A DNA stretch of 43,073 bases from a virus. The notes under the pieces were generated by a model. The model made no database searches. It had not been told where the DNA came from and saw only the letters and a list, made by a program, of their open reading frames with translations. A program made the translations under genes and the position numbers. Within the stretch, counting starts at the first letter, position 1, and each line of letters opens with the position of its first letter. Below, in pieces: positions 2,508-40,371 of the stretch. The stretch covers positions 1 through 43,073 of IMG/VR virus record IMGVR_UViG_3300017963_000124, one strand, 5' to 3'.

Positions 2508-2675
2508 TTACTTGGAATAGAAGAGAACGATTTGGTTACACACCGGACATCGAAAGTGAACGGTGCTCTTCTTGTTGTCGTATACGATTTCGGAGGCGAC
2601 GCATCCCATTAAAGAAATGGGGCCGTCCCTCTTACACACCACATAGGTGGTTTCGGAGGGGATTTCTATCATCAT
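2508..2675 (-). CDS. 55-residue zinc-binding protein (ATGA-coupled)
   Basis: A small gene whose ATG overlaps the stop of the Topo VI A-like gene (ATGA). The product starts MMIEIPSETTYVVCKRDG and contains four cysteines, two as a CPVC knuckle near the C-terminus (FRCPVCNQ), so a zinc ribbon is likely. The rightward reading frame across the same bases has no supporting context and is treated as a shadow. Function unknown; the size and cysteine pattern resemble many other small zinc proteins of this virus. Confidence 0.7.
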   Translation of the reverse strand: MMIEIPSETTYVVCKRDGPISLMGCVASEIVYDNKKSTVHFRCPVCNQIVLFYSK

Positions 2676-4444
2676 TCCTCGTCGTCCTCGCTCACTTTGA
2701 TGATAGCGGCTTTGGTCTTCTCAAGTAAATCATCAACATCGATTTCCGTTAAGTCGAAATCTTCTGGGCACACGGAGATCTCATCGTGTAATTTGTTGAG
2801 CATTTCAACCAACTTGGCCGACAATACTCGCGAATTACAAACTTCCGCGCCCCAACGTTGACTCCACGTTTCCTTACCCGCTTTGAAATCTCGCCAATAA
2901 GAATTCACATATCTGGAAACGTCTCGGTCGTCGAAATCGGGATCTTCTGAATACTCCTTAGCGGAATCAACTAATTCCTCTTTCACGGCTTCGATCATGT
3001 CAGATCGGACATTGTTGTACTCGTCGATCAATTCGTCGATTGGATCAGTCATCCGGTTGCGGTATTCGCGCAACAAGTCAATGTCCTTCGCGATTTGCGT
3101 GTTATCAACGTACTCCGTCGCGGAATCTTCGGCACAGTCTTCCGGGTCTTCACGGTTGCGGTCCTTACAACTTTCAAGCATGTTCTCGGCAGTAAACCCG
3201 ATACTGGAAACAACTTCCGCGAAAGCATTCTTGAGTTGGTCGTCTTCCAATGCTTCCAATTCGAAGCCCATTAAGCCGCCGCCAAACACGTCCTTGTCCT
3301 TGTCGTATCCCATCGAATCTATCCAATTCTGGTCGAAAACCCCGTACTTACCGCTCTTCTTTTGCATTTTGGGGATATAACATTGTTGCTGGCGCTGATC
3401 GGTTGGGATGTTCAATTGCCACATGGAATGACTCCAAAAGAGCACTTCCACGCCACATTTTTCGAATTGTTGCTCGGCAGGGGCACGGGCGATTTTCAAG
3501 CCCGCTGGGTCGTGGTCCGTTATCGACATGAAGATTATCTTCGTTTTCCCGTTGGAATCCAAGTTATTGATGAGTTTCTCAAGTGAGGAGATGGAATTTT
3601 GTCCGTGTCCAGAAATAACGTTGATTCCGATGTATTCTCCCATAGGCCTCAAGAGATCAAACTCGGCATCTTTCTCCACCATTAGAACGAAGTGGATCTC
3701 ATCTTGTGAGTTAAAATCGTCTTCCAAGATTTTCTCAACATCGGTAATGATATCCTTCAACGGTTTGTACAAGTTTATGAGAACGGCGTTATTCTCCTCA
3801 ATTTGCTCCTTCATTGCCTGGCCGTTTTCGAATTCCTTGAGATAGTTGAGAAAGTGCTTGAAGAGAATCTTTCGACGAACGTTAAATCTCATTCGGGAAA
3901 TGTCTTGAATCCCGAGGTCTTCGTATTTGCACACGGCATCACGGACGGGCACGGCGGCAACACCCAACCACTCGGTCTCTTTAGAGATTTGGGCGGTGCA
4001 CCAGTATTGGGCGGCGACGGAGATGTTTCTGGGCATAACATCATAGAAATCCACGTCGGTATCTGGGTCCTTCTTGTACTCCCCGTTATTGAAGACGATC
4101 TTGTAAACGGACTGCAACATGGGCTTGAATTTGTACCAGATTTTTCGCATGGAACGGCTGGAGCCACTGTGGGCTCTTTGGAATGCTCGGATTTCGTCCC
4201 CGAGAATGGAGGCTAAGAAAGACTTGGTGGCTTTTTTCCACGAGCCACAAGACTTCACTACTTCATAGATCTCTTCTGGAGATAACTCCAAGAAGATGTT
4301 TTTGGCGGGGAGTTGCGGAATCAAGTCCTCCATCGTTTCGTAATCGATAAAGTTGATTTCCGCGTACTTCTCCCACGCCGCTTTGATTTGCTTCACGAAG
4401 GAATCGTTTCGAATCAAATCCAGCCAGAGTTTTTCGTTAAACAT
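2672..4444 (-). CDS. Topoisomerase VI subunit A / Spo11-like protein
   Basis: 590 residues from the ATG at 4444; the open frame continues upstream to a GTG at 4543, but that part contains the probable TATA box and is discounted. The order is a winged-helix (5Y-CAP-like) domain with RKIWY (candidate catalytic tyrosine near residue 104), then a Toprim domain with VEKDAEF (Glu near 257) and ITDHDPAG (DxD at 290-292), then an acidic helical C-terminal extension of about 200 residues ending SEDDEE. TopoVIA/Spo11 proteins make double-strand breaks through tyrosyl-DNA links with Mg2+ bound by Toprim. No B (ATPase) subunit is encoded, as in the 'Mini-A' relatives reported from mobile elements. First gene of the replication block. 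Confidence 0.75.
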   Translation of the reverse strand: MFNEKLWLDLIRNDSFVKQIKAAWEKYAEINFIDYETMEDLIPQLPAKNIFLELSPEEIYEVVKSCGSWKKATKSFLASILGDEIRAFQRAHSGSSRSMRKIWYKFKPMLQSVYKIVFNNGEYKKDPDTDVDFYDVMPRNISVAAQYWCTAQISKETEWLGVAAVPVRDAVCKYEDLGIQDISRMRFNVRRKILFKHFLNYLKEFENGQAMKEQIEENNAVLINLYKPLKDIITDVEKILEDDFNSQDEIHFVLMVEKDAEFDLLRPMGEYIGINVISGHGQNSISSLEKLINNLDSNGKTKIIFMSITDHDPAGLKIARAPAEQQFEKCGVEVLFWSHSMWQLNIPTDQRQQQCYIPKMQKKSGKYGVFDQNWIDSMGYDKDKDVFGGGLMGFELEALEDDQLKNAFAEVVSSIGFTAENMLESCKDRNREDPEDCAEDSATEYVDNTQIAKDIDLLREYRNRMTDPIDELIDEYNNVRSDMIEAVKEELVDSAKEYSEDPDFDDRDVSRYVNSYWRDFKAGKETWSQRWGAEVCNSRVLSAKLVEMLNKLHDEISVCPEDFDLTEIDVDDLLEKTKAAIIKVSEDDEE

Positions 4445-4637
4445 TGTGATTTTCACCGGTTTCGTCTCCCGCGGTTGTTGGCGGGTAGTTATTTCGGTGG
4501 ATACCCATCCGAACGAGTATTTATAAATGTACTTAGTGAACACAAGTGTTTTTCCGCTTATAGGAAAGCAAACCCTTAAATTAACTTAGTTTAATTACTT
4601 CCACACTAAGTAAACACTTAGTAAAAGCATTTCACGG
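4445..4637. promoter_or_regulatory. Divergent promoter region with 11-bp iterons
   Basis: Separates the leftward Topo VI A-like gene from the rightward encapsulin-like operon. On the minus strand a TATA box (TTTATAAATAC, about 4517-4527) faces the leftward block. On the plus strand CTTAAATTAA (about 4575-4584) is a TATA candidate for the gene at 4638. Two abutting copies of the 11-bp motif ACTWAGTGTKK lie at 4601-4611 and 4612-4622 on the minus strand, with related plus-strand copies at 4531-4541 and 4584-4594. AACACAAGTGTT (4539-4550) is an extra palindrome. Confidence 0.6.
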
Positions 4638-4826
4638 ATGTTAAACATGGTACAAGAAAAAGACTTCCTCATGGCTCATTGTGCCGAGGACGCGAAAACC
4701 ATCATTTCCTTGAAAGATGCCCTAAAGAAAAACAAGGAATTACTTCACAAGTTGGCAATGTCTATGGTCACGACTTTTGAAGAGGCGTGCGCGATCCACG
4801 GTATCCCGGTGATACAAAATGCCTAA
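4638..4826 (+). CDS. Small helical protein, first gene of encapsulin-like operon
   Basis: 62 residues, mostly helical (EDAKTIISLKDALKKNKELLHKLAMSMVTTFEEAC), followed by an IHGIPV tail. A second ATG lies nine bases downstream and could be the true start. The next gene overlaps its last codons by 8 bp. No family recognised. Its position ahead of the encapsulin-like shell candidate makes it a possible partner or cargo, but nothing in the sequence shows that directly. Confidence 0.7.
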   Translation: MLNMVQEKDFLMAHCAEDAKTIISLKDALKKNKELLHKLAMSMVTTFEEACAIHGIPVIQNA

Positions 4827-5022
4827 TGTGGAAGGTACAAGAAATATCTACTTTGGTAAGAACGAGGCTCCCATAGTTAAGGGGTGGACGGCCAAAGAGA
4901 TAGCAACCCTCATCTCCAAGGGTCGCCAGTTATTTGAAATGGCGATGTCCAACGCGGAGGACGAGGAAATCGAATATCTGGAAGCAAATCCAGAATTGAT
5001 GGAGGTAATCAAGAAATGGTAA
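4819..5022 (+). CDS. Small hypothetical protein preceding encapsulin-like gene
   Basis: 67 residues, acidic at the C-terminus (SNAEDEEIEYLEANPELMEVIKKW) with a predicted helix from about residue 25 (TAKEIATLISKGRQLFEMAM). It overlaps both neighbours (8 bp and 7 bp), so it is translationally coupled to the encapsulin-like gene. No known domain; candidate partner, cargo or regulator of the shell-like protein by context only. Confidence 0.7.
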   Translation: MPNVEGTRNIYFGKNEAPIVKGWTAKEIATLISKGRQLFEMAMSNAEDEEIEYLEANPELMEVIKKW

Positions 5023-6044
5023 ACTTGGGACCACCGGCAACGTGTAAAAACTGCTTGGGAGCAATGACTCCGCCATTTGAAAGATGTCCGTATTGCGGCA
5101 CGTACTACCCGAAAATGATGGGTTTGTTTCCGTCAACACCATCATCGGAATTGTCAGCCAATATCCCACCTATTACGGGATCTAAACCCAAATCTGAATT
5201 GTGGGAATTTAGACCCGGTTTAAGAGAAAAATTCGCACCAAGAGTCCCAAACTTCAACGAACCAATGCCAATAGTCCGGCCTCATTTCACGGGATTAGAC
5301 ACGGAAATATATCCCGGGCTTAATCTCCATCGTTTATTAGATGTTGCGCGGGCTTACCAATTGCAGAATGTATCCTTGATACGAACATTGGCTCCAACGA
5401 TATATCCCGTTCAAGCGGGTATTAATTATTGGTCCACGCCGAATGACAACACGCACAAAATAGCCACGATATCCAAAGTTGCCACCTTTGAACGAGTTGA
5501 TCAAAAACATCAATTGGAACAGGTTATTCGTGAAACCTCTAATAGATTTTGCATTGAAGAGGACCGCTTGGCGTTCCTTGGCGATAAACACATCGGCGTT
5601 AAGGGTTTGGTGAAACAAACAAGTGATTTTGCGGCACACGAGATAACGATACAAACCATTATCGACGGGATCAACGAATTCGTGAAGGAGACTGGTGAGA
5701 TAAGACCCAATGTTGTTATGACTTCCCCGGCGTTCAAATGGTGTGCAACCGTGCATATTTCACCCGGTAGAACACCTTTGGAAGTTATAAAGACTTGTGC
5801 AAACGTGTTTGTGAGCAATAACATTCAAGAAGAGACGCCCACATACGATAATAACACGGTGCTCATACTTCCGTCTCAAACACAACATTGGCACATGGCG
5901 GGTTCAACTCTTGAAGTAGAGGTTAGACCAGACTTATGGAAACTACACATTCGTTTCTGTATAAAGTCAGCCGTTATTGTCGAAAACCCACGCGCGTTAT
6001 TCGCAATAATCAACAAACCACTTGGTGAACCAGAATGGACATAA
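5016..6044 (+). CDS. Zinc ribbon fused to encapsulin-like HK97-fold protein
   Basis: 342 residues. The N-terminus has a zinc ribbon (C10-x2-C13, C24-x2-C27), then a Pro-rich linker to about 85. From about 95 to 335 the sequence follows the encapsulin pattern: a long helix (LEQVIRETSNRFC), the diagnostic acidic turn (EED, 181-183, then LAFLGD) and GVKGL (194-198). It continues with a strand before TPLEVIKTC, then LEVEVRPDLWKLHIRF and a final strand with NPRAL. These match family-1 encapsulins such as the Thermotoga maritima one (FEDEVIFRG, GVKGL, NPEAL). Encapsulins and viral capsid proteins share the HK97 fold. It is not in the structural operon, which has its own capsid gene. It may form a shell or be a minor capsid protein. 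Confidence 0.7.
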   Translation: MVNLGPPATCKNCLGAMTPPFERCPYCGTYYPKMMGLFPSTPSSELSANIPPITGSKPKSELWEFRPGLREKFAPRVPNFNEPMPIVRPHFTGLDTEIYPGLNLHRLLDVARAYQLQNVSLIRTLAPTIYPVQAGINYWSTPNDNTHKIATISKVATFERVDQKHQLEQVIRETSNRFCIEEDRLAFLGDKHIGVKGLVKQTSDFAAHEITIQTIIDGINEFVKETGEIRPNVVMTSPAFKWCATVHISPGRTPLEVIKTCANVFVSNNIQEETPTYDNNTVLILPSQTQHWHMAGSTLEVEVRPDLWKLHIRFCIKSAVIVENPRALFAIINKPLGEPEWT

Positions 6045-6400
6045 CGAGGAAAACAAAGAAGCCGAAGCCGGCACCAAAACCGGTGGAGACAAAGAAGCCA
6101 CCCAAGCCGAAAAATAGTCAACCTGACCGGTCTAAATCCAAATCCAAGTCGACCACGACGACCACGAGAACCACACGAAAGCCAAAAGCCCCGGTGAGCA
6201 TGATAAAATCGCTGGTGAAGACGGCTCGCATTAAATACTCCCATCATCCCCCGAAGTGCTCGAAATGCGGTAAAAAACCAAATCCTGTTAAAATCAAGGG
6301 TAAGTTGGTTTGCGAGTGTGGGAATGAGTTGAAGTGGGACCCGTCTCCCTCGTGGGTGGTAATATTCGAAACGGAAAACTGGCTCGCCAAGATCTCTTAA
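6035..6400 (+). CDS. Very basic Lys/Pro/Thr-rich protein with C-terminal zinc ribbon
   Basis: 121 residues. The first 60 are a disordered, strongly basic tract with repeated KPKP, KSKSKS and TTTTTRTTRK segments, the type of tail that neutralises nucleic acid. Residues from about 75 carry a zinc ribbon (CSKC, then CECG) and the end is WVVIFETENWLAKIS. It overlaps the end of the encapsulin-like gene by 10 bp and closes the operon, just before a T8 run. Inference: a nucleic-acid-binding partner or cargo of the encapsulin-like protein. It could equally be a general chromatin-like protein. Confidence 0.72.
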   Translation: MDITRKTKKPKPAPKPVETKKPPKPKNSQPDRSKSKSKSTTTTTRTTRKPKAPVSMIKSLVKTARIKYSHHPPKCSKCGKKPNPVKIKGKLVCECGNELKWDPSPSWVVIFETENWLAKIS

Positions 6401-9994: not shown

Positions 9995-10067
9995 TACGCC
10001 GGGGAGGATTTGAACCTCCATCTCGCGCTTGGGTAGCCCGTGTGCTTCCATATTGCACCACCGACGT
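9995..10067 (-). tRNA. tRNA-like gene, apparent anticodon CCC (Gly), atypical
   Basis: A 73-nt cloverleaf can be drawn: acceptor ACGTCGG/CCGGCGT (one G-T pair), D arm GTGC/GCAC, T arm GGAGG-TTCAAAT-CCTCC, discriminator A. The anticodon arm is CGGGC-TACCCAA-GCGCG, giving anticodon CCC, but with a G-G mismatch in the stem and A instead of the near-universal U at position 33. No CCA is encoded. It could be a diverged glycine tRNA, a decoy or tRNA-derived RNA, so the identity call is tentative although the tRNA fold is convincing. Confidence 0.7.
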
Positions 10068-10077
10068 TTGGGTTTGG

Positions 10078-10150
10078 TTGCAGTGGGTGGAATTGAACCA
10101 CCTATCTCCGGATTATGAGCCCGGCGAGTCTACCAATACTCCACACTGCA
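10078..10150 (-). tRNA. tRNA with anticodon CAU (Met or Ile2)
   Basis: A 73-nt cloverleaf: acceptor TGCAGTG/CACTGCA (7 pairs), D arm GAGT/ACTC with GG in the loop, anticodon stem CCGGG/TCCGG with loop CTCATAA (C32, U33, anticodon CAU), T arm GGTGG-TTCAATT-CCACC, discriminator A, no CCA. CAU can be elongator methionine or, if C34 is changed to agmatidine, isoleucine for AUA. The U1-A72 pair does not resemble archaeal initiators. A TATA box sits about 28 bp upstream. The tRNA-like gene follows 10 nt later. Confidence 0.9.
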
Positions 10151-20381: not shown

Positions 20382-21332
20382 CTAAGGCGGGGTAACGCCT
20401 GCATCAATTTCGTCCATCCAAGCAATGAATTTTGGCTGGAGAATCTTGGGAGCAAACTTTTCCCGCATACCGTAGGAGGTCTTCCAGTTATTGACCTTGT
20501 CCATGCTTTGCTCGATGCCGGATGAGAGGATCTCCCACGCGGCGTCGGCGGGGCCGGTTCTGGCGACCATGAGCATGGAATTGGCATCCTTGGCAACATT
20601 CTCTTGGAGGAAGTTTGTGGTGTAAACGTTTCCGCCATTCAACTTGGCTCGCATGATGTCAAGGTTGGTCGTCTTGGGGTCGTACGGAACCACGGTGGTG
20701 TTGGCCAACGTGTATATATACGAGGTAAGCACAACATCAACGGGGCGGTCTTGGAGACCTTCGGATGTGAAGTGATCGAGACCTTTCAATACGGCCGCTT
20801 GTAAATTCTCAAGAATACCGTCACCATCACTATCATCACCAAACGGACCGACGGGATTACCAAGGTCTTCGCTGCCAGTAGCACCAATTAGACCTTCGAT
20901 CTTAACACCGGGCCTACCACGGAATCCAATAATGTCCTCTTCGTTCTTGATTAACTTCACCATACGAGTCATTGCGAGGGGAAGTCTTTCTTTACCCGCG
21001 AAGAGCCGGGCCCAGTGGTCGTTTGCGAGACTAACGGAATGGTAGATCTGGGGAGTCGGAACGGTAATGGTCGTACCAGTAATGTTCTTATGATCATCCT
21101 CTGGTTCCATTGCATAGTTGGGACGCTCCATATCATCCAGTGCGCCAGTTTGATGGGATGTGGTACCGTCGAATTGTAGGCTATCTACTCTGGGAGCCAT
21201 GATGCGGAGAACGTTGGGCTGGTCGTGAAACAAGACCACGAGTTGGTTTGAAAACTTCCTAATATCCGTGATTAACGGGGAGAAGGACGAATCGCCACCA
21301 ATCTTGATAATCGGGTTGAGGTCGTATGACAT
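20382..21332 (-). CDS. Major capsid protein, HK97 fold
   Basis: 316 residues from an ATG preceded by GGTGA at good spacing (the frame extends to a GTG at 21344). The core matches encapsulin-like capsid proteins: a spine helix (ARLFAGKERLPLAMTRMVKLIK) running into EEDIIGF (131-137), then PGVKIEGLIG, a helix (NLQAAVLKGLDHF), a strand (DVVLTSYIYTLA) and a C-terminal strand (KFIAWMDEI). An N-arm with GGDSSFSPL precedes. It follows the protease/scaffold and decoration genes in the usual head order. The encapsulin-like protein at 5016-6044 shares the acidic-turn motif. Confidence 0.85.
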   Translation of the reverse strand: MSYDLNPIIKIGGDSSFSPLITDIRKFSNQLVVLFHDQPNVLRIMAPRVDSLQFDGTTSHQTGALDDMERPNYAMEPEDDHKNITGTTITVPTPQIYHSVSLANDHWARLFAGKERLPLAMTRMVKLIKNEEDIIGFRGRPGVKIEGLIGATGSEDLGNPVGPFGDDSDGDGILENLQAAVLKGLDHFTSEGLQDRPVDVVLTSYIYTLANTTVVPYDPKTTNLDIMRAKLNGGNVYTTNFLQENVAKDANSMLMVARTGPADAAWEILSSGIEQSMDKVNNWKTSYGMREKFAPKILQPKFIAWMDEIDAGVTPP

Positions 21333-21373
21333 TTTTCTTTTCACCTGTTATCGTTGAATACAATACCGTGATT

Positions 21374-21877
21374 TTAGGGCGCGGGAACCGGTATGTATGC
21401 CTTGTTGATCAGGAGCCAAGCATAGACCCAACCCGGTGCAGTGGTGGTAGTCGCACTGAATGCCGCACGTGCAACCGGAATACCACTGGCGAGTTTAGTG
21501 GAGATTCCCAAGGCACCGACCTCAAGATAGTCTCCTTTTACTATGGTTTGACTTTCCGCCAACCTTAATAGAACCAAATCCGCGACTTCCGCAACATCCA
21601 CGAATTCGTCGTTTTCCGCATGTTTACTACTCTGTACGCCGCTCACTATTGGCAAGTGAGTCTTTTGGACTTGAAAGAGACCAACGGGTACCTCATCGGC
21701 TGGGCACAACTTGACTTGATAATCACTTGAACCACGCGCCGCGAATCGACCCACGACTTCCTCAATTGCTGCCGAAGTTTGCTCATATCGGAGTTGCTCG
21801 GTAAACTTTCTCCACGTCCCGCGTGTAATCTGGGTTGGATATCCGTTTACCAAGGAACTAAGGACCGGATTAGACAT
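21374..21877 (-). CDS. Capsid decoration (cement) protein, DUF2190-like
   Basis: 167 residues. The second half has the short beta strands of the DUF2190 cement family (ADLVLLRLAESQTIVKGDYLEVGALGISTKLASGIPVARAAF ... VYAWLLI), describing a small beta barrel. It lies between the protease/scaffold and major capsid genes, the usual place, with a one-base TAATG overlap to the former. It would stabilise the expanded capsid from the outside. Confidence 0.72.
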   Translation of the reverse strand: MSNPVLSSLVNGYPTQITRGTWRKFTEQLRYEQTSAAIEEVVGRFAARGSSDYQVKLCPADEVPVGLFQVQKTHLPIVSGVQSSKHAENDEFVDVAEVADLVLLRLAESQTIVKGDYLEVGALGISTKLASGIPVARAAFSATTTTAPGWVYAWLLINKAYIPVPAP

Positions 21878-23127
21878 TAGACCTTACCTCCATCAACGTA
21901 TTTTTGCATATGGGCATACTCCGGTCTGAGGACCATTTTCTGGCTGTCGGAGTCGAATTGGAACATGTTGATGTCTAACAGGGGGATTTCCTCGTTGCTA
22001 TCCCGTTCGGTTTGATTCCCGGAATCCCGGTCGCCTTGGATCTTACCGCCAACAGATCGGGCACCGAATAGGCAACCCTCAATGAAGTCGGCTGATTTGG
22101 ACTTGAAGGATTTAGAATCGAAGCCGTGCTCCTTGACGAGAATATTCACGGTGTTTTCCGTGTTCTTGGTAATCTCGGCTTGGTACAAATCCTGATAGGT
22201 CTTTGCGGAATCTTGTGCAACCTTGAGTTGTTTCTCAAGAGCACTAATCCGCTTATCGACGGAATCACGATTGGTTGCTTCGGCTTTCAAACGAGCATTT
22301 TCTGCAATGAGTTGCTCCCGTGTCTTGCCAAGTGAATCGGACGAGTTTTTTTCCTCTTCCTCTTCCTCTTCCTCTTGGTCCATATCTTCTTTCTTGTTTG
22401 GTGACACTTTGGGTTCAACCTGTTTGATTTCCATTTCGTTTTTTGCCATGAGACTCGCACGGACGTTTAATTCTACCCGATCTATGCGGGGATTATCTTG
22501 GGCGAGTTTCCGCTTTATCTCTTCGATACGTTCTTGCGGAATATTTTCCAAGGCGTCCGTTGCTATGACATGTGAATCATAGCCTACCATGTTAATATCT
22601 ATGCCCTTTTGCTCGGAAACACTACTATCGTTATTCACCGTTATCCCGAGCGGTGAGAAAGTTATTCTCGCGTCACCTGCAATTTGGAGAGCCTGGCGGT
22701 CTCGTGGTTCGTCGGTTAGCGCCAAGTGATCGATCAAGAGATTGGACTGTATTTCGTCGTACGGTACGCCATCGTGGGTGCCCTTTTCTTTAACCATTTT
22801 GTAGGGATAACCAATGGAATATCCCCTCTTGATGACCGAGCCGTTGGTAAGATGGATATCGGCACATAAATTCTTATCCCCGTGCGGGCAGGCCTTGATG
22901 ACGGCTGTACCGAGTACCTTCTCCTTGCCGGAGAATAGCCCGTGATTCCCGTTTTCCATTGAGGGGTGCTCATCCAATACTGGGACACGACGGCCTATAT
23001 TGGACTTGAGGTCCTCCCATTTCTTGAGTTTGGCCACGCCGTATTCCGGATATTGCAGAACGCCCTCCCGTGCTACCGGTTGATTAAGGAGAACGGTGTC
23101 CAAGTCTACTTCGCTCATTTTTATCAT
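21877..23127 (-). CDS. Prohead protease (DUF2213-like) fused to scaffold
   Basis: 416 residues. Residues 1-165 match the DUF2213 type: PVAREGVLQYPEYG, VLDEHPS, NHGLFSGKEKVLGTAV, LTNGSVIKRGYSIGYPYK (probable Ser region) and LLIDHLALTDEPRDRQA. An acidic stretch (DQEEEEEEEEKNSSDS, about 250) is followed by a coiled coil (EQLIAENARLKAEATNRDSVDKRISALEKQLKVAQDSAKTYQ), the scaffold part. A cleaved internal scaffold fused to its protease is standard for HK97-like heads. Start overlaps the preceding stop (ATGA). Confidence 0.85.
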   Translation of the reverse strand: MIKMSEVDLDTVLLNQPVAREGVLQYPEYGVAKLKKWEDLKSNIGRRVPVLDEHPSMENGNHGLFSGKEKVLGTAVIKACPHGDKNLCADIHLTNGSVIKRGYSIGYPYKMVKEKGTHDGVPYDEIQSNLLIDHLALTDEPRDRQALQIAGDARITFSPLGITVNNDSSVSEQKGIDINMVGYDSHVIATDALENIPQERIEEIKRKLAQDNPRIDRVELNVRASLMAKNEMEIKQVEPKVSPNKKEDMDQEEEEEEEEKNSSDSLGKTREQLIAENARLKAEATNRDSVDKRISALEKQLKVAQDSAKTYQDLYQAEITKNTENTVNILVKEHGFDSKSFKSKSADFIEGCLFGARSVGGKIQGDRDSGNQTERDSNEEIPLLDINMFQFDSDSQKMVLRPEYAHMQKYVDGGKV

Positions 23128-28597: not shown

Positions 28598-28855
28598 TCA
28601 CATCTCCATTCTTATTTTTGATTGGGCTTTGCAGTAATCACCGATCATCGTGATGGCTTCGCGGATATCGACGGCCTCACCCAAATCAATTGTGTTCTTG
28701 TAGAGAACGGTATATCCTTCAATATCACCGTCTTCGGTAATGTCGGGAATGAAGGTGTGCTTCCCGTATCTAACGGTGTCGTATCTACCATCGGATTTAC
28801 ACATTCTCATCTTTCGGAGCATCATTTTCTCGCGGATCTCGTTGTCGGTCATCAT
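28598..28855 (-). CDS. Hypothetical protein, first gene of small leftward block
   Basis: 85 residues: basic N-terminal helix (DNEIREKMMLRKMRMCKSDGRY), strands (YGKHTFIPDITEDGDIEGYTVLYKNTIDLGEA) and a C-terminal helix (REAITMIGDYCKAQ). No motif recognised. Transcribed from the divergent control region shared with the terminase gene. Confidence 0.7.
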   Translation of the reverse strand: MMTDNEIREKMMLRKMRMCKSDGRYDTVRYGKHTFIPDITEDGDIEGYTVLYKNTIDLGEAVDIREAITMIGDYCKAQSKIRMEM

Positions 28856-28966
28856 TTCGGGTTCACTTAGTTTTCGTTATTGCTCTGGAGTAGTATCCAC
28901 GACAAGTTATTTAAGTCTTATGTGTCTTCCGTGTTAGTCTCCAATTCGGAAGTCTCATTCCCGCTC

Positions 28967-28999
28967 ACTTAGTGTTTACTTAGTGTTTACTTAGTGTTC
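28967..28999 (+). repeat. Three tandem 11-bp direct repeats (ACTTAGTGTTT)
   Basis: Period 11 bp, about one helical turn, so a protein would bind on one face of DNA. Located about 10 bp upstream of the terminase late-promoter motif. Related copies lie in the other divergent region (4584-4622). Confidence 0.8.
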
Positions 29000-29051: not shown

Positions 29052-31160
29052 ATGCCACGGAGAAAATTCTGGCCCTCGGATAACATGCGGATAGCCGCGT
29101 GGAAAGCCATGAAAAAACGAGGGCTTGCCATGACACTTGAAATGAAAAAAGCAATGCGGTATCATTATCAAATGCTTGCCGATAAAGGGCTTTTCTCTTC
29201 ACCCACTTCCAAAGATTTGGCGAAGATGGGCGTGGATACCGCGAGTTGGAACGAGGGAAAAGGGTACCTCCCGATGGACCTCAAACTTGAGGAAGAGATA
29301 ACCAAACCGGTCTCCGACGAGATTAAAATTGATGTGACCGGAGCAAAAGGTCCAGAGCCTCCACGAATAGATAACAAGACTGCCATGGCGCAAACCATCA
29401 AAGGAGTCATTAACTCTGGTCGTGGCTTCAAGAAACAGGATCCAGACGAATCGGAGAAAGTCGCGTTTACTGGGAGAAAATGGCAAGGGGAACATTGGGA
29501 CCCAGAAAAGAAGGAGTGGGTAACCAAAGAAGGTTATTGGTGGAATCCTGTTATACAAGACTGGACTCCTGGTACGCCCCGTTTGGGTCCCTTCTATTGG
29601 TCCTTTGAATTCATGTGGGATCCCACGAAGTATCTTGACCCGGTGCCATATGGCTCGTTCCACGACGAAGTGCTCCATAAGATGGAGAAGACTCGTAGGG
29701 GCATTATCCTTATCCCGCGAGACCACTTGAAGACCACAATGTTTGCAGTAAACTACATAACGTACCACATTCTGGAGTTGCCCGAGAAAGCCAAAATGGG
29801 GATCATTAATATCTCGTGGGATTCCGACTTGGCGGGGACAACCTTCATGGACATCAAGGAGAACCTTGAAGAGAATGAGAAGATCGTCTCATTCTATGGG
29901 AATGTAATCGACGAGGACCGTCCAAAGACTGCGGAGAAGATTTTCTTTGTTTATCAACCGATCGGGCCCAAGTTTGGCTTGAAATGTACCTCTTTCAAGT
30001 CTGGTAGCATCACCGGGACACACCCTTATTTGGTAATCATGGACGACCCAGAGGACGAACCGCTTTCAGAGAAACTAATGAAAAAATTCAAGCGGGTAAT
30101 GAATAAGAAACTAATCCCAGCGGTGGGTAAGAAAGGGCGTATCTACTTGATTGGAACCATCAAGGGCTGGGACACGAAAAATGATGGCTATCTGTGGCTA
30201 ATGAAAAATCCAACGTGGACGGTGATGGAGTACCCCGCCGCCAATAAGATGCCGGAACCAGACACCTACACGCTGGAAAAGAAGGAGGTCCCAGTCCGGG
30301 ACGAAGAGACCGGAGAATACTTGTATGATAGTCAAGGTAGGTTGAAAACGGAGATACAATATATGGCCACCGTTCAAAACCGCGAGGAGTATGTTACCCT
30401 CTATCCCGAAAGATACACCATTGAGGACCTCGTGTGTAAGCGTCACGAAATGCTGGACGAGGGCGAGGCGGATACGGACTTCTGGTCCGAATATTTCCTC
30501 CGACCGTCCAACCCATCTGGTAACTTCTTTCTCAAGAAACGGGTGTTTGCGGCGCCTCCGCCAGGATTTAACACGGTCCGGGAGTTTATTGACGCCGTGC
30601 ATAAGAAACACAAGAACATAACCATGTTTATAGACCCTGGCGGCGCTGCCAGCCACGGGATAGCGGTAATCGTGGGAACCAGATTCAAGGGAAACTACGT
30701 GTTCTTGGATTTTCGCATATTTAGAGTGGGTCTAAAACAGGTCGCCAAGAAACTAATAGAAATGGTGGAATTATGGGATATAGATACGATCCTATGTGAG
30801 GGCAACTTCTCCCAAAAACAAACGTATGCCCAAGTGCTTACCGACTTCATGAAAGACCAGTGCGAGGCCGACGGCACGGAACATCTTTTCCGGCGAGTCC
30901 AGGCGGTCTTCAACACGGGCGAGAAGTATCAACGCATCCACACTCACTGGAGTAACATGATAGGCTTGAAAGACACGGAGATTCAATGTTATGTTAATAG
31001 AAAGTCTAAGGGCTATCTGGACTTTAATTTACAACTTGGAGCCTTCGGGGTGGGGGCGGCGGGCGTTAAGAGTCACGATTATGATCTCCTCGATGCCGGG
31101 GCTTCTCTAAATATATGGGCCTTTAAAAGAGCAACTCGGGCAGTCGGGATCGCGTGTTAG
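29052..31160 (+). CDS. Terminase large subunit
   Basis: 702 residues. About 200 residues of N-terminal extension precede the ATPase: adenine/Walker A region IILIPRDHLKTT (219-229, the RxxxKT viral variant), Walker B YLVIMDDPED (326-335), motif III RIYLIGTI (363-370). The RNase H-like nuclease has MFIDPGG (Asp528), ILCEGN (Glu583) and a final Asp in HDYDLLDA (about 680). The enzyme cuts concatemers and pumps DNA through the portal. It is the only structural gene on the plus strand and is controlled separately from the head genes. Confidence 0.93.
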   Translation: MPRRKFWPSDNMRIAAWKAMKKRGLAMTLEMKKAMRYHYQMLADKGLFSSPTSKDLAKMGVDTASWNEGKGYLPMDLKLEEEITKPVSDEIKIDVTGAKGPEPPRIDNKTAMAQTIKGVINSGRGFKKQDPDESEKVAFTGRKWQGEHWDPEKKEWVTKEGYWWNPVIQDWTPGTPRLGPFYWSFEFMWDPTKYLDPVPYGSFHDEVLHKMEKTRRGIILIPRDHLKTTMFAVNYITYHILELPEKAKMGIINISWDSDLAGTTFMDIKENLEENEKIVSFYGNVIDEDRPKTAEKIFFVYQPIGPKFGLKCTSFKSGSITGTHPYLVIMDDPEDEPLSEKLMKKFKRVMNKKLIPAVGKKGRIYLIGTIKGWDTKNDGYLWLMKNPTWTVMEYPAANKMPEPDTYTLEKKEVPVRDEETGEYLYDSQGRLKTEIQYMATVQNREEYVTLYPERYTIEDLVCKRHEMLDEGEADTDFWSEYFLRPSNPSGNFFLKKRVFAAPPPGFNTVREFIDAVHKKHKNITMFIDPGGAASHGIAVIVGTRFKGNYVFLDFRIFRVGLKQVAKKLIEMVELWDIDTILCEGNFSQKQTYAQVLTDFMKDQCEADGTEHLFRRVQAVFNTGEKYQRIHTHWSNMIGLKDTEIQCYVNRKSKGYLDFNLQLGAFGVGAAGVKSHDYDLLDAGASLNIWAFKRATRAVGIAC

Positions 31161-31447: not shown

Positions 31448-31762
31448 CCGAGGGCGGTTTAAGGGGATCCCAGCGGGCCCACACGACACCGCCCGAGGTA
31501 GGCCCGAGGCACCTTGGTTGCGACACCACACACCGTCCCGAGGTACATCGGGATCACCTTGGTTGGCGCCACACGACCACGCCCGAGGTATATCAGGATC
31601 ACCTTGGTGGGATTTCCATAACCTTGTCCGAGGTAGTTTGGAGATACCTTGGATGCTCTGATTCGGTGCAGCCCGAGGTAGGTTTAACCCACCTTGGGTA
31701 ATCTCCCATAACCGCACTGGGATCTCCACGGCACACCTTGGATGATGCCCTATGGAATCAAC
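31448..31762. repeat. Tandem array of dyad sites with exact 45-bp period
   Basis: Units begin at 31448, 31493, 31538, 31583, 31628, 31673 and 31718, each 45 bp after the last. Five central units carry CCGAGGTA, a variable 9-bp centre and (C/T)ACCTTGG, an inverted repeat with one G-T mismatch; the 20-bp linkers diverge. The outer units are degenerate, and a reversed half-site (ACCTCGGG) follows at about 31771. All three reading phases are open because 45 is divisible by 3. The invariant bases include third codon positions, so selection appears to act on DNA. Candidate origin, partition or packaging site. Confidence 0.8.
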
Positions 31763-37074: not shown

Positions 37075-37309
37075 TCGACTTCTCCTTGTCCTTTCGTTTG
37101 GAAATGGCGAGATATTCATAATAATAGTCCGGGAACGCCGTTTTAATCCTGGCGACGTTCTTAATATCGGCATGTAACAAAGCATCGCCAAGAGCCTTAA
37201 CGAAACTCCCGCCGTATTGCTTCATTGCATAAGCCACGGCTTGTCTCTCCTTTTCCACCTTCTCGTATAACTCCATGTTGTTTTCACTCATTTTTTGTTG
37301 TTTAGTCAT
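37064..37309 (-). CDS. Hypothetical helical protein after helicase
   Basis: 81 residues from the ATG at 37309, or 75 from the ATG at 37291. ELYEKVEKERQAVAYAMKQYGGSFVKALGDALLHADIKNVARIKTAFPDYYYEYLAISKRKDKEK: helical, basic C-terminus. It overlaps the helicase stop by 8 bp. Unknown, perhaps helicase-associated by context. Confidence 0.66.
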   Translation of the reverse strand: MTKQQKMSENNMELYEKVEKERQAVAYAMKQYGGSFVKALGDALLHADIKNVARIKTAFPDYYYEYLAISKRKDKEKSNEQ

Positions 37310-38891
37310 CCAGCGGGTCAAACATATCTTCCCGTTGGTCATACTCTTCATATTCTGGTGTATCATAGTCCAATTCTATTTTGGCGACATCAACGTTTGT
37401 CACCTTACTCTTTTTTCTCCCACGTTGAAGCATATCGATGGTAATTTGTGATGGCGTGATGCTCTTGGGATCTACCCAGATCGTCTCCTTCAATTTTAGA
37501 CCGGTGTACGTGTATGGGCGTTTTCCGTCTTCGTTCTTGTTTTTTATACGGCCCTTACCAAATCCCTTTGAGTACAAATCTTGTGTGAATTGTGGCTTCT
37601 TGAGTACCTTCATGGCACCATCCGCGGCAGCAAAATCAACATATGCTTCATAAATACTTTCTTGAATATCTTCAAATCTCGCGTCCTCGTCACACATTTG
37701 TTTAATGAAACGGTAGACCGTGTCCGTCTCCTGCATGATGATTTCCATCACTTCCTCGGCACTTTGAGCAACAAACATCCCACGAGCCGACAACTCTTTA
37801 AATGCGTCCACCGCAAGAGATATAATCGCCTCTAATTCCTTCTCGTCGGCAATGATGGTTCTTTCGAAATCGGGTATCAATTCGTCGGTTGGGATAACCC
37901 TATCGAAGACAATGATTACCCAGCGCCTGCAATACGCCAGATCAAGGCCTATCACGGGAGGCATGTTATTCGTGGAAAACCAATGCTTGACCGTGTTATC
38001 CACGACATGAAAGCCCGCTCCCTTGATTTCATAGTCTATCTTATCATCTATCAGGATCTTGATGCGGGAAGAGTCCGTGATAGCCTTGTTAACGGAAATA
38101 TCTGCATAGAAGTTAAGCAGTTTAAAGACGATCCCGCTGGTCCCGAATCTTTTTGATAATCGTTGGACCGAAATGCTGGAACAATTATCTTCACCTACAA
38201 TAGCGGCCAGGATATTTAGAAACGTGGATTTACCCGTCTTACCCGGTCCCTTCACCATAAACAATTTTTGAAACTTCACTCCCATATACAACGTACAACC
38301 AACGGCCTTCATGATTAAATCGAATTTTTCCCAATCATATTTGATGGTCTTCAAGAGCCAAGGGATAAACTTTAACGGAGTCTTGTTTTCAAAATAATCG
38401 TGTGGGATTTGAATGGTGTAGTCTCTATCATAGTCCATGTGTTTATCTCTATGACCGTGAAATGTAAAATCGGTGGTATCAACCCAGCCGTTCTTGAAAT
38501 TCATTACCTCGCGATTTCGATTAAATTGCTCTATTTTCATTTGTCGGGCTTCTTTAATTCTCGCCCTAATGTCATCCCGTGTATAAGGAGAATATTTTAA
38601 CCCGCTATATTTCACATAATGTCGTATAAGTCTATTTAACGAAACGTCCACGTCAAAATACCATCTTCCGCTATACCACTTCGCGAATTTACCCTTGGCG
38701 TCTCCCACCCAAGCATAATTATGGTATCGAATGATAAACCAAATGATCTTATCGTGTATTTCTGCGGTTTCGTTCTTAACCTTTCTTAACTCAAGGTTTT
38801 TTAGGAATTCGTCGAAATCATAACGTGTTCCAATACTGCCTGGCGGTTCGAAGATTTCCGAATCGATGGTTTGAATAAATTCAGGATCCAT
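37302..38891 (-). CDS. SF3 (D5/P4-type) replicative helicase
   Basis: 529 residues from the ATG at 38891. A D5_N-like helical region (about 80-190; NRLIRHYVKYSGLKYSPYTRDDIRARI; REVMNFKNGWVD) precedes the AAA+ SF3 core. That core has Walker A GPGKTGKST (215-223), Walker B at LLNFYADIS, sensor 1 at WFSTNNMPP and the arginine finger at CRRWVII. The rest is a winged-helix-like C-terminus and an acidic tail (DQREDMFDPLDD). No primase (AEP) domain is attached. Such proteins form hexamers that open origins of viruses and plasmids. Confidence 0.9.
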   Translation of the reverse strand: MDPEFIQTIDSEIFEPPGSIGTRYDFDEFLKNLELRKVKNETAEIHDKIIWFIIRYHNYAWVGDAKGKFAKWYSGRWYFDVDVSLNRLIRHYVKYSGLKYSPYTRDDIRARIKEARQMKIEQFNRNREVMNFKNGWVDTTDFTFHGHRDKHMDYDRDYTIQIPHDYFENKTPLKFIPWLLKTIKYDWEKFDLIMKAVGCTLYMGVKFQKLFMVKGPGKTGKSTFLNILAAIVGEDNCSSISVQRLSKRFGTSGIVFKLLNFYADISVNKAITDSSRIKILIDDKIDYEIKGAGFHVVDNTVKHWFSTNNMPPVIGLDLAYCRRWVIIVFDRVIPTDELIPDFERTIIADEKELEAIISLAVDAFKELSARGMFVAQSAEEVMEIIMQETDTVYRFIKQMCDEDARFEDIQESIYEAYVDFAAADGAMKVLKKPQFTQDLYSKGFGKGRIKNKNEDGKRPYTYTGLKLKETIWVDPKSITPSQITIDMLQRGRKKSKVTNVDVAKIELDYDTPEYEEYDQREDMFDPLDD

Positions 38892-39192
38892 TATTTTCTC
38901 CCTCAAGGAATGATTTTAATATGTTTTCCACGAGAATGCTTTGAGAAACTCCCTTCTTTTTGGCCCTTGTTTCCAGTTTCTCTATCAAGGAGACTGGTAA
39001 ACCAAAACTCTTCGTTTTTAGAGGCGGGCAACGATTACAAGTCGCCACTTTTGACTTTCTGGCAACGGAAACCAACATTGGCTTCCCGCAATTTCTACAC
39101 TTCACTTCTATAGCATTACCTCTTAAACCCTTCAATAGTCTCTTCGATATGTCTTCCGGGCGATAACCGATCCATTTTCTCTTCTCACTCAT
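38881..39192 (-). CDS. Zinc ribbon plus RHH DNA-binding protein
   Basis: 103 residues. Basic N-terminus (RPEDISKRLLKGLRG), zinc ribbon (VKCRNCGKPMLVSVARKSKVATCNRCPP) and C-terminal ribbon-helix-helix (SFGLPVSLIEKLETRAKKKGVSQSILVENILKSFL). It overlaps the helicase gene by 11 bp and has its own promoter upstream. Probably a replication initiator accessory or repressor of this sub-block. Confidence 0.8.
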   Translation of the reverse strand: MSEKRKWIGYRPEDISKRLLKGLRGNAIEVKCRNCGKPMLVSVARKSKVATCNRCPPLKTKSFGLPVSLIEKLETRAKKKGVSQSILVENILKSFLEGENNGS

Positions 39193-39243: not shown

Positions 39244-40371
39244 TTACCCCTCGCTAAATTCTATATCGTCCGGGTCTATAGTGTCTTCCTCCTCTTCGAC
39301 CGGCTTTGCATTCCTGTTTTCCTCTACGGCATCATTAATTTCGATATCCTTCAAGTTGCCTTCCTCGTCATATAGGTCATCCTCGTCTTCCTCAAACCGA
39401 GGCGCCACCAGATAGATGATAGAGCCACCATCAACGGTTTCAAGTCTACCTTTCTCTTTCTTGAAATCACCACGGAGAATGAGTGGAAGATCTTCCCCGA
39501 TGGTCATCCACGGCACTTCGACCGTGCCAGCCATGTTAAGAAAGGTATCGATGTACTCAAGCCCATAACAACCGTGGGCATATTGCGGGGTGCCGTCAGC
39601 AAAAGACGAGCCTTTAACGTCTTCCTCGTCCGAGATATTTAATGTTGTTTCAACGGAACCACTCACCGGGTCAACACTATAAACCTTAACGAGACTTGGC
39701 TCGTCCGGCTCATACTCAAAGTGGACGGTCTCACCTATTAATCTCGCGTCCTCGGCAATTCGTTTTAGAACATCAAGGTCCATCTTTAACTTCACCTTGA
39801 ATTCCTCCTCAACGTTATTCGCGAATTTAACAATTTCGTCTTCCGCCGGGTCGTTTACATCGATCTTAACACTCTTGTTTCGAATCTTGAACGTTCTCCT
39901 TTTCTTACCCTTGATAATGTGAATGGACAAAATACTCGGCTCATCCCCATTATAGGCGATTTCGATGGCTTCGTTTCCCTTAGCCCTGCCCATTATTTTC
40001 TTAAGATCGGCGATATCCACTCCCCAAGAAAAGTTTGTGTTGCTCCTAAACTTGGAGAAAAACCCCGAGGGCATATCAATGAAGACCATAGAGACTCGTT
40101 GCGGGTCCACCGCCGAAATTGTCATTCCGTTCTCGTTCACCTTGATAACCACGTCACTCAAGAACGAGGCTGACACGTCCAACACGGACGTTAATTTCTT
40201 TGGTGAGACCAATATGGCATTAAACAACTCTTTCTTGTGTTTAACCGTGGCCTTTTCCTTCTTGTTTTCCTTTGTTTTTTTCTTACCCAATAACACCACC
40301 TTCGTTCCATCACACACCCGTTGGGTCGGGTCCCATTGGTACAACGGGTTTGGATGTCTTGACCCGATCAA
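39244..40371 (-). CDS. PCNA-like DNA sliding clamp with terminal extensions
   Basis: 375 residues from a TTG at 40371. From about residue 48 the sequence is a PCNA: LFNAILVSPKKLTSVLDVSASFLSDVVIKVNENGMTISAVDPQRVSMVFIDMP, then FSWGVDIADLKKIMGRAKGNEAIEI, and a second half ending PLILRGDFKKEKGRLETVDGGSIIYLVAPR. Usual archaeal PCNAs are about 245-250 residues. Here a Lys-rich extension (KKKTKENKKEKATVKHKK) precedes it and an acidic tail of about 50 follows (EEDEDDLYDEE ... EEEEDTIDPDDIEFSEG). No viral DNA polymerase is present, so the clamp probably captures a host polymerase. Confidence 0.92.
   Translation of the reverse strand: MIGSRHPNPLYQWDPTQRVCDGTKVVLLGKKKTKENKKEKATVKHKKELFNAILVSPKKLTSVLDVSASFLSDVVIKVNENGMTISAVDPQRVSMVFIDMPSGFFSKFRSNTNFSWGVDIADLKKIMGRAKGNEAIEIAYNGDEPSILSIHIIKGKKRRTFKIRNKSVKIDVNDPAEDEIVKFANNVEEEFKVKLKMDLDVLKRIAEDARLIGETVHFEYEPDEPSLVKVYSVDPVSGSVETTLNISDEEDVKGSSFADGTPQYAHGCYGLEYIDTFLNMAGTVEVPWMTIGEDLPLILRGDFKKEKGRLETVDGGSIIYLVAPRFEEDEDDLYDEEGNLKDIEINDAVEENRNAKPVEEEEDTIDPDDIEFSEG

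Follow-up and report, generated by a model that had tools for sequence, protein, structure and literature searches.

The window analysed here, a linear virus record of 43,073 bp, encodes in addition to its major capsid protein (MCP) a second protein, P0001, whose sequence resemblance to HK97/encapsulin proteins exceeds chance. The reading that we favor, at a probability of roughly 0.45, is that P0001 belongs with the MCP among HK97-type capsid proteins and forms a minor component of the same shell, located for example at the five-fold vertices. The record contains terminase, portal, protease, MCP, and tape measure genes and probably represents a head-tailed virus of an archaeon; an archaeal host is suggested by the genes for PCNA, an ERCC4-type nuclease, and a topoisomerase VI (Topo VI)–like protein, together with TATA-like boxes.

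The P0001 operon

P0001 is encoded by the third gene of a four-gene overlapping operon, which contains no other recognisable head gene and adjoins the Topo VI–like gene. The operon and the parts of P0001 are arranged as follows:

4638–4826, plus strand: operon gene 1, an open reading frame of 62 residues without a significant family
4819–5022, plus strand: operon gene 2, 67 residues, acidic (pI 4.7), its stop overlapping the P0001 start
5016–6044, plus strand: P0001, second HK97-like protein, 342 residues (Linocin_M18 match just over the cut-off; BLASTP matches to the virus's own MCP and to EncA)
5043–5096, plus strand: Cys4 ribbon of P0001, residues 10–27, CKNC-x10-CPYC (from sequence)
5172–5255, plus strand: P0001 residues 53–80, a copy of the motif in the C-terminal tail of the MCP, W...G[LM]REKFAP[RK][VI] (second BLASTP segment, E=6e-4)
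5475–5831, plus strand: HK97/encapsulin-like core of P0001 (E-loop turn, spine, and A-domain), residues 154–272 (Pfam Linocin_M18)
6035–6400, plus strand: operon gene 4, 121 residues, pI 10.3, Cys4 ribbon (from sequence properties)

The reading frame of P0001 was confirmed from the sequence and its translation, and a Shine-Dalgarno sequence, GGAGGT, lies ahead of its start at 5001–5006. All of the motifs listed in the first-pass annotation were found in the protein: C10-x2-C13...C24-x2-C27, EED at 181–183, GVKGL at 194–198, TPLEVIKTC at 253–261, and NPRAL at 324–328. The N-terminal Cys4 ribbon is present and is predicted to bind zinc; its match to Pfam Zn_ribbon_15 has an E value of 0.14, under the cut-off of that model. 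The description of the neighbors, two small frames upstream and a basic Cys4-ribbon protein downstream, was borne out as well. The downstream protein has a charge of about +23 and combines its ribbon with a front rich in Lys, Pro, Ser, and Thr; profile searches returned no family match for it, and family searches with the 62-residue protein gave no significant match.

The adjoining Topo VI–like protein (623 residues; 2672–4543, minus strand) scores 21.1 bits against the Topo VI A/Spo11-type Toprim family, below the Pfam cut-off of 24.1 bits, and also matches PHROG 6247, DNA topoisomerase. Elsewhere in the window, a sliding clamp, PCNA, whose C-terminus is long and acidic (39244–40371, minus strand) and a D5/DUF5906-type helicase (37302–38906, minus strand) suggest a virus-encoded replication module, for a host of the archaeal type. 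A pair of neighboring tRNA genes, for Gly(CCC) and Met(CAT), occupies 9995–10150 on the minus strand.

Similarity of P0001 to capsid proteins and encapsulins

The Pfam model Linocin_M18 (PF04454) matched P0001 residues 154–272 with 24.8 bits (E=1.5e-5), only 0.5 bits over its cut-off of 24.3 bits. In pairwise BLASTP comparisons, P0001 aligned with M. xanthus EncA at E=4e-6 (25% over 104 residues, from the EED turn through the A-domain), with its own MCP at E=5e-6 (25% over 145 residues), and with the T. maritima encapsulin at E=0.009; the T. maritima and M. xanthus sequences used are identical to PDB chains 3dkt and 4pt2. Shuffle comparisons with three matrices yielded Z scores of 7.5–8.9 for the MCP, 6.0–9.1 for EncA, and about 4.4 for the T. 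maritima protein, compared with about 2 or less for unrelated proteins of the window. The MCPs of the archaeal viruses psiM2, BJ1, and HFTV1 showed no detectable similarity to P0001 (Z about 1 or less) and reached a Z of at most 2.4 with the MCP of the window. The landmarks had been described as occurring in the same order as in the T. maritima encapsulin, which applies mainly to the stretch from the E-loop turn to the A-domain, whereas the C-terminal NPxAL match alone is not significant.

The head genes to which P0001 was compared are the following:

20382–21344, minus strand: MCP, 320 residues (place after the protease; encapsulin profile, E=0.0017)
20427–20516, minus strand: C-terminal tail of the MCP, residues 277–306, source of the shared motif (BLASTP, shuffles, and codon comparison)
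21877–23127, minus strand: head maturation protease (DUF2213 / PHROG 2229; family match)

The capsid gene noted at 20382–21332 in the initial reading is present, with its coordinates and strand corrected as listed. When an encapsulin-type profile built from five family 1 encapsulins and the MCP of phage MaInes was run over all six-frame open reading frames of the window, the MCP ranked first (E=2.8e-4), P0001 second (E=4.6e-3), and the third frame at 0.26. At the sequence level the record therefore holds exactly two HK97/encapsulin-like proteins, in agreement with the original proposal. Using hhalign, the MCP and P0001 matched the encapsulin profile at E=0.0017 and E=0.0049, respectively, and the two aligned as a pair matched it at E=1.3e-4. 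Within the window, the pattern EED..[AG]F.G.......GL occurs in P0001 and the MCP only. Its matches elsewhere, 10 viral and 119 in genomes, were rejected as chance or unrelated hits, apart from one distant phage capsid protein without usable similarity.

Structure prediction, proposed earlier as a check, was carried out with AlphaFold without a deep alignment and gave a pLDDT of 36.6 for P0001 alone and 30.9 for its core together with the MCP, a low confidence that is attributable to the lack of relatives. Foldseek searches with these low-confidence models found nothing significant, the top row of the second run being EncA at E=1.3, and a PDB sequence search with P0001 produced no real match. 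No relatives of P0001 were found in viral contigs, genome contigs, phages, or plasmids, collections from which records very near the window are possibly absent. Queries with TerL and the MCP in viral contigs, and with the portal and the MCP in phages, found no close relatives, and the T. maritima and M. xanthus encapsulins had no matches in viral contigs. Based on the sequence comparisons, P0001 is predicted to adopt the HK97 fold.

Operator-like boxes and the shared tail motif

P0001 is located outside the structural gene block, as annotated, but the accompanying claim of separate regulation is not supported, since operator-like boxes are common to the promoters of its operon and of the TerL and head-tail genes:

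4531–4622, no strand: operator-like cluster of four ACTTAGT boxes, including ACTAAGTAAACACTTAGT at 4605–4622, in the divergent promoter of the P0001 operon
28865–28999, no strand: the only other ACTTAGT cluster, four boxes, with ACTTAGTGTTT repeated 2.9 times in tandem, in the promoter region from which TerL (plus strand) and the head-tail operon (minus strand) diverge
29052–31160, plus strand: terminase large subunit (TerL; PHROG 38, E=8e-38)

All eight copies of ACTTAGT in the 43-kb window are confined to these two intergenic regions, the second set of four boxes spanning 28865–28995. By chance 2.8 copies are expected, and none of 100 shuffles reached eight, a post hoc figure for a feature that was noticed in the data first and then tested. 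Of the 3311 7-mers with at least six occurrences, ACTTAGT is the most tightly clustered. Allowing up to three mismatches, the 18-mer ACTAAGTAAACACTTAGT is found only in the two clusters, with 0.04 matches expected, and the ACTTAGTGTTT boxes have a spacing of 11 bp. The head-tail operon runs leftward, with small genes first at 28855, followed by the portal, protease, MCP, and tail genes. The common boxes therefore suggest that the P0001 operon is probably under the same regulator as the packaging and structural genes, and a putative viral regulon likely joins the P0001 operon and the Topo VI–like gene to TerL and the head-tail operon. Since the Topo VI–like gene also faces the first cluster, this regulon may not be purely late. 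Just downstream of TerL, at 31493–31673, lies a GC-rich array of a 45-nt repeat with no clear gene, which may serve as a site for packaging or replication.

A second feature in common with the virion genes is found in the protein itself. Between the ribbon and the HK97 core, P0001 contains a 30-residue segment in which residues 53–80 resemble residues 277–306 of the MCP (ITGSKPKSELWEFRPGLREKFAPRV / IEQSMDKVNNWKTSYGMREKFAPKI), with Z scores of 6.9–8.2 and none of 2000 shuffles equaling the score, figures that are likewise post hoc. The motif is absent from EncA and the T. maritima protein, the encapsulins compared, and the pattern G.REKFAP[RK][VI] has two matches in the window and none in the viral contigs. 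At the nucleotide level, only 22 of 45 positions are identical and nearly every synonymous position has changed, indicating that the similarity is old or selected and not the result of a recent DNA copy. An interpretation of the segment as an internal repeat of P0001's own C-terminus was rejected. P0001 and the MCP share both the core and the REKFAP motif. In the MCP, which has no ribbon, the motif is C-terminal; in P0001 its place is the N-terminal arm. An origin of P0001 by duplication of the MCP gene is plausible but unproven, because the core is equally near the MCP (5e-6) and EncA (4e-6); P0001 could also stem from a different capsid or encapsulin gene that the virus acquired.

Possible roles of P0001

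The ACTTAGT boxes and the tail motif in the arm, both common to virion genes, tie P0001 to the virion. In the minor-shell reading, P0001 would be co-expressed with the packaging and structural genes of a head-tailed virus and contribute a minor component to the shell of the MCP. It might sit at the vertices, where second HK97 proteins classically function. The MCP-tail-like segment would dock P0001 on MCP neighbors, the scaffold, or the protease, where the MCP tail binds, and the arm would place the Cys4 ribbon inside the head, as the N-terminus of encapsulins faces the lumen. There, the ribbon and the basic 121-residue ribbon protein might hold DNA or internal proteins. Co-assembly with the MCP, the position in the shell, and the contact with DNA are predictions of this model, and the vertex location is one guess among the possible shell positions. 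Of the three hypotheses put forward originally (a nanocompartment, a minor vertex protein, or an early nucleoprotein shell), the minor vertex protein is now the most favored, given the boxes and the outcome of the encapsulin comparisons described below. The site beside the Topo VI–like gene and away from the structural block, a core no nearer to the MCP than to EncA, the single recognised protease, the low-confidence structure predictions, and the lack of relatives showing conservation argue against it. A parallel from a different virus group is T4 gp24, in which no ribbon is known. Pentamers of gp24 occupy the vertices of the T4 capsid (PMC3012670). T4 has been shown to possess an additional protein of capsid type next to its MCP, the situation proposed here for P0001.

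An unlikely but serious alternative is that P0001 serves as an alternative MCP, with two shell lattices or a switch in capsid size or stage, as proposed for the ekchuahviruses of ANME-1 archaea. Dual-MCP archaeal head-tailed viruses have been published, the ekchuahviruses encoding two divergent HK97 MCPs, each with a protease (PMC9894754), and the present record likewise encodes a pair of HK97-like proteins whose cores are of similar length. The likeness to Ekchuahviridae MCP-2 (GBV301/GBV302) follows the published description and not sequence; the sequences of GBV301 and the related PBV299 were not found in the collections searched. In contrast to the ekchuahviruses, where each MCP copy has its own protease, the protease at 21877–23127 is the only one recognised among the open reading frames scanned in this possibly incomplete record. 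The ribbon and long Pro-rich arm of P0001 are also unlike the MCP, and its operon lacks a further recognisable head gene.

The initial identification of P0001 as encapsulin-like raised the prospect of a nanocompartment or nucleoprotein shell apart from the virion, in which the ribbon would hold cargo or nucleic acid. The core does resemble those of the family 1 encapsulins EncA and T. maritima from the EED turn to the A-domain, the operon supplies a very basic ribbon protein as a partner, and M. xanthus EncA has been reported to condense DNA (PMC9321382). Nevertheless, P0001 scored 17 bits against the NCBIfam equivalog NF041155 (encap_f1), whose cut-off is 100, a scan of the operon for cargo-loading peptides gave spurious frames only, and the operon neighbors match no known cargo family. 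P0001 further departs from family 1 encapsulins in being viral, in its N-terminal ribbon and arm of about 90 residues, and in having operators common to packaging genes. The Linocin_M18 match is itself non-specific: this model gives 68 bits to the MCP of Brevundimonas phage MaInes, whose gene is surrounded by those for a terminase and a tape measure protein. The MaInes/StAshley MCP (DUF6260 / Linocin_M18) is a working phage capsid on the Linocin_M18 branch, the single MCP in the region read, and shows no detectably closer relation to P0001 (Z about 2); the MaInes protein (ON529866.1, 5914–6909) matches EncA at E=2e-10, so that the encapsulin branch includes a capsid protein of a phage. According to the paper that defined the encapsulin families, sequence searches yield numerous phage capsids as false positives, and hits in phage neighborhoods were discarded (PMC8346489); this curation rule, which admits no phage or virus gene neighborhood, would exclude P0001, with head and tail genes in the same record. 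With the virus's own MCP equally similar, the term encapsulin is too strong for P0001, and its marginal Linocin_M18 match should not be taken as such. Together with the boxes and tail motif common to P0001 and virion genes, these results make a particle apart from the virion improbable. A more specific version, a zinc-ribbon-armed second shell that is distinct from the virion, co-expressed with the packaging genes, and loaded with the basic ribbon protein and nucleic acid, would be improbable as well.

We regard as quite improbable that P0001 is a capsid-interfering look-alike of the MCP, poisoning or redirecting the assembly of a competing virus or satellite, or chaperoning assembly of the virus's own head: MCP-tail mimicry in the arm, a site apart from the head genes, and the gain of a ribbon domain would fit such a function, but the co-regulation boxes are shared with the virus's own TerL and head operon, a defence-family search gave no match, and we know of no capsid-interfering system of this form. 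Finally, the narrow Pfam margin, the lack of a fold from AlphaFold run without a deep alignment, and the lack of a significant Foldseek hit could mean that P0001 is a ribbon protein resembling encapsulins by chance, which is very improbable considering the independent matches of the same region to EncA, the T. maritima protein, and the MCP, Z scores of 4–9 where controls reached about 2 or less, and a profile that ranks only P0001 and the MCP among all open reading frames.

If P0001 is a minor shell protein, the few known instances of tailed viruses that encode two HK97 proteins would be joined by one of archaeal type; we found no report of a zinc-ribbon arm with MCP-tail mimicry. The operator-like boxes provide a simple handle on the timing of its production. 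Viral capsid proteins are regarded as the ancestors of encapsulins, and in this virus the MCP and P0001 are both about as near to encapsulins as they are to one another, P0001 having in addition an N-terminal ribbon and an operon of its own; if P0001 forms a separate particle, it would represent a living link from capsids to encapsulins.
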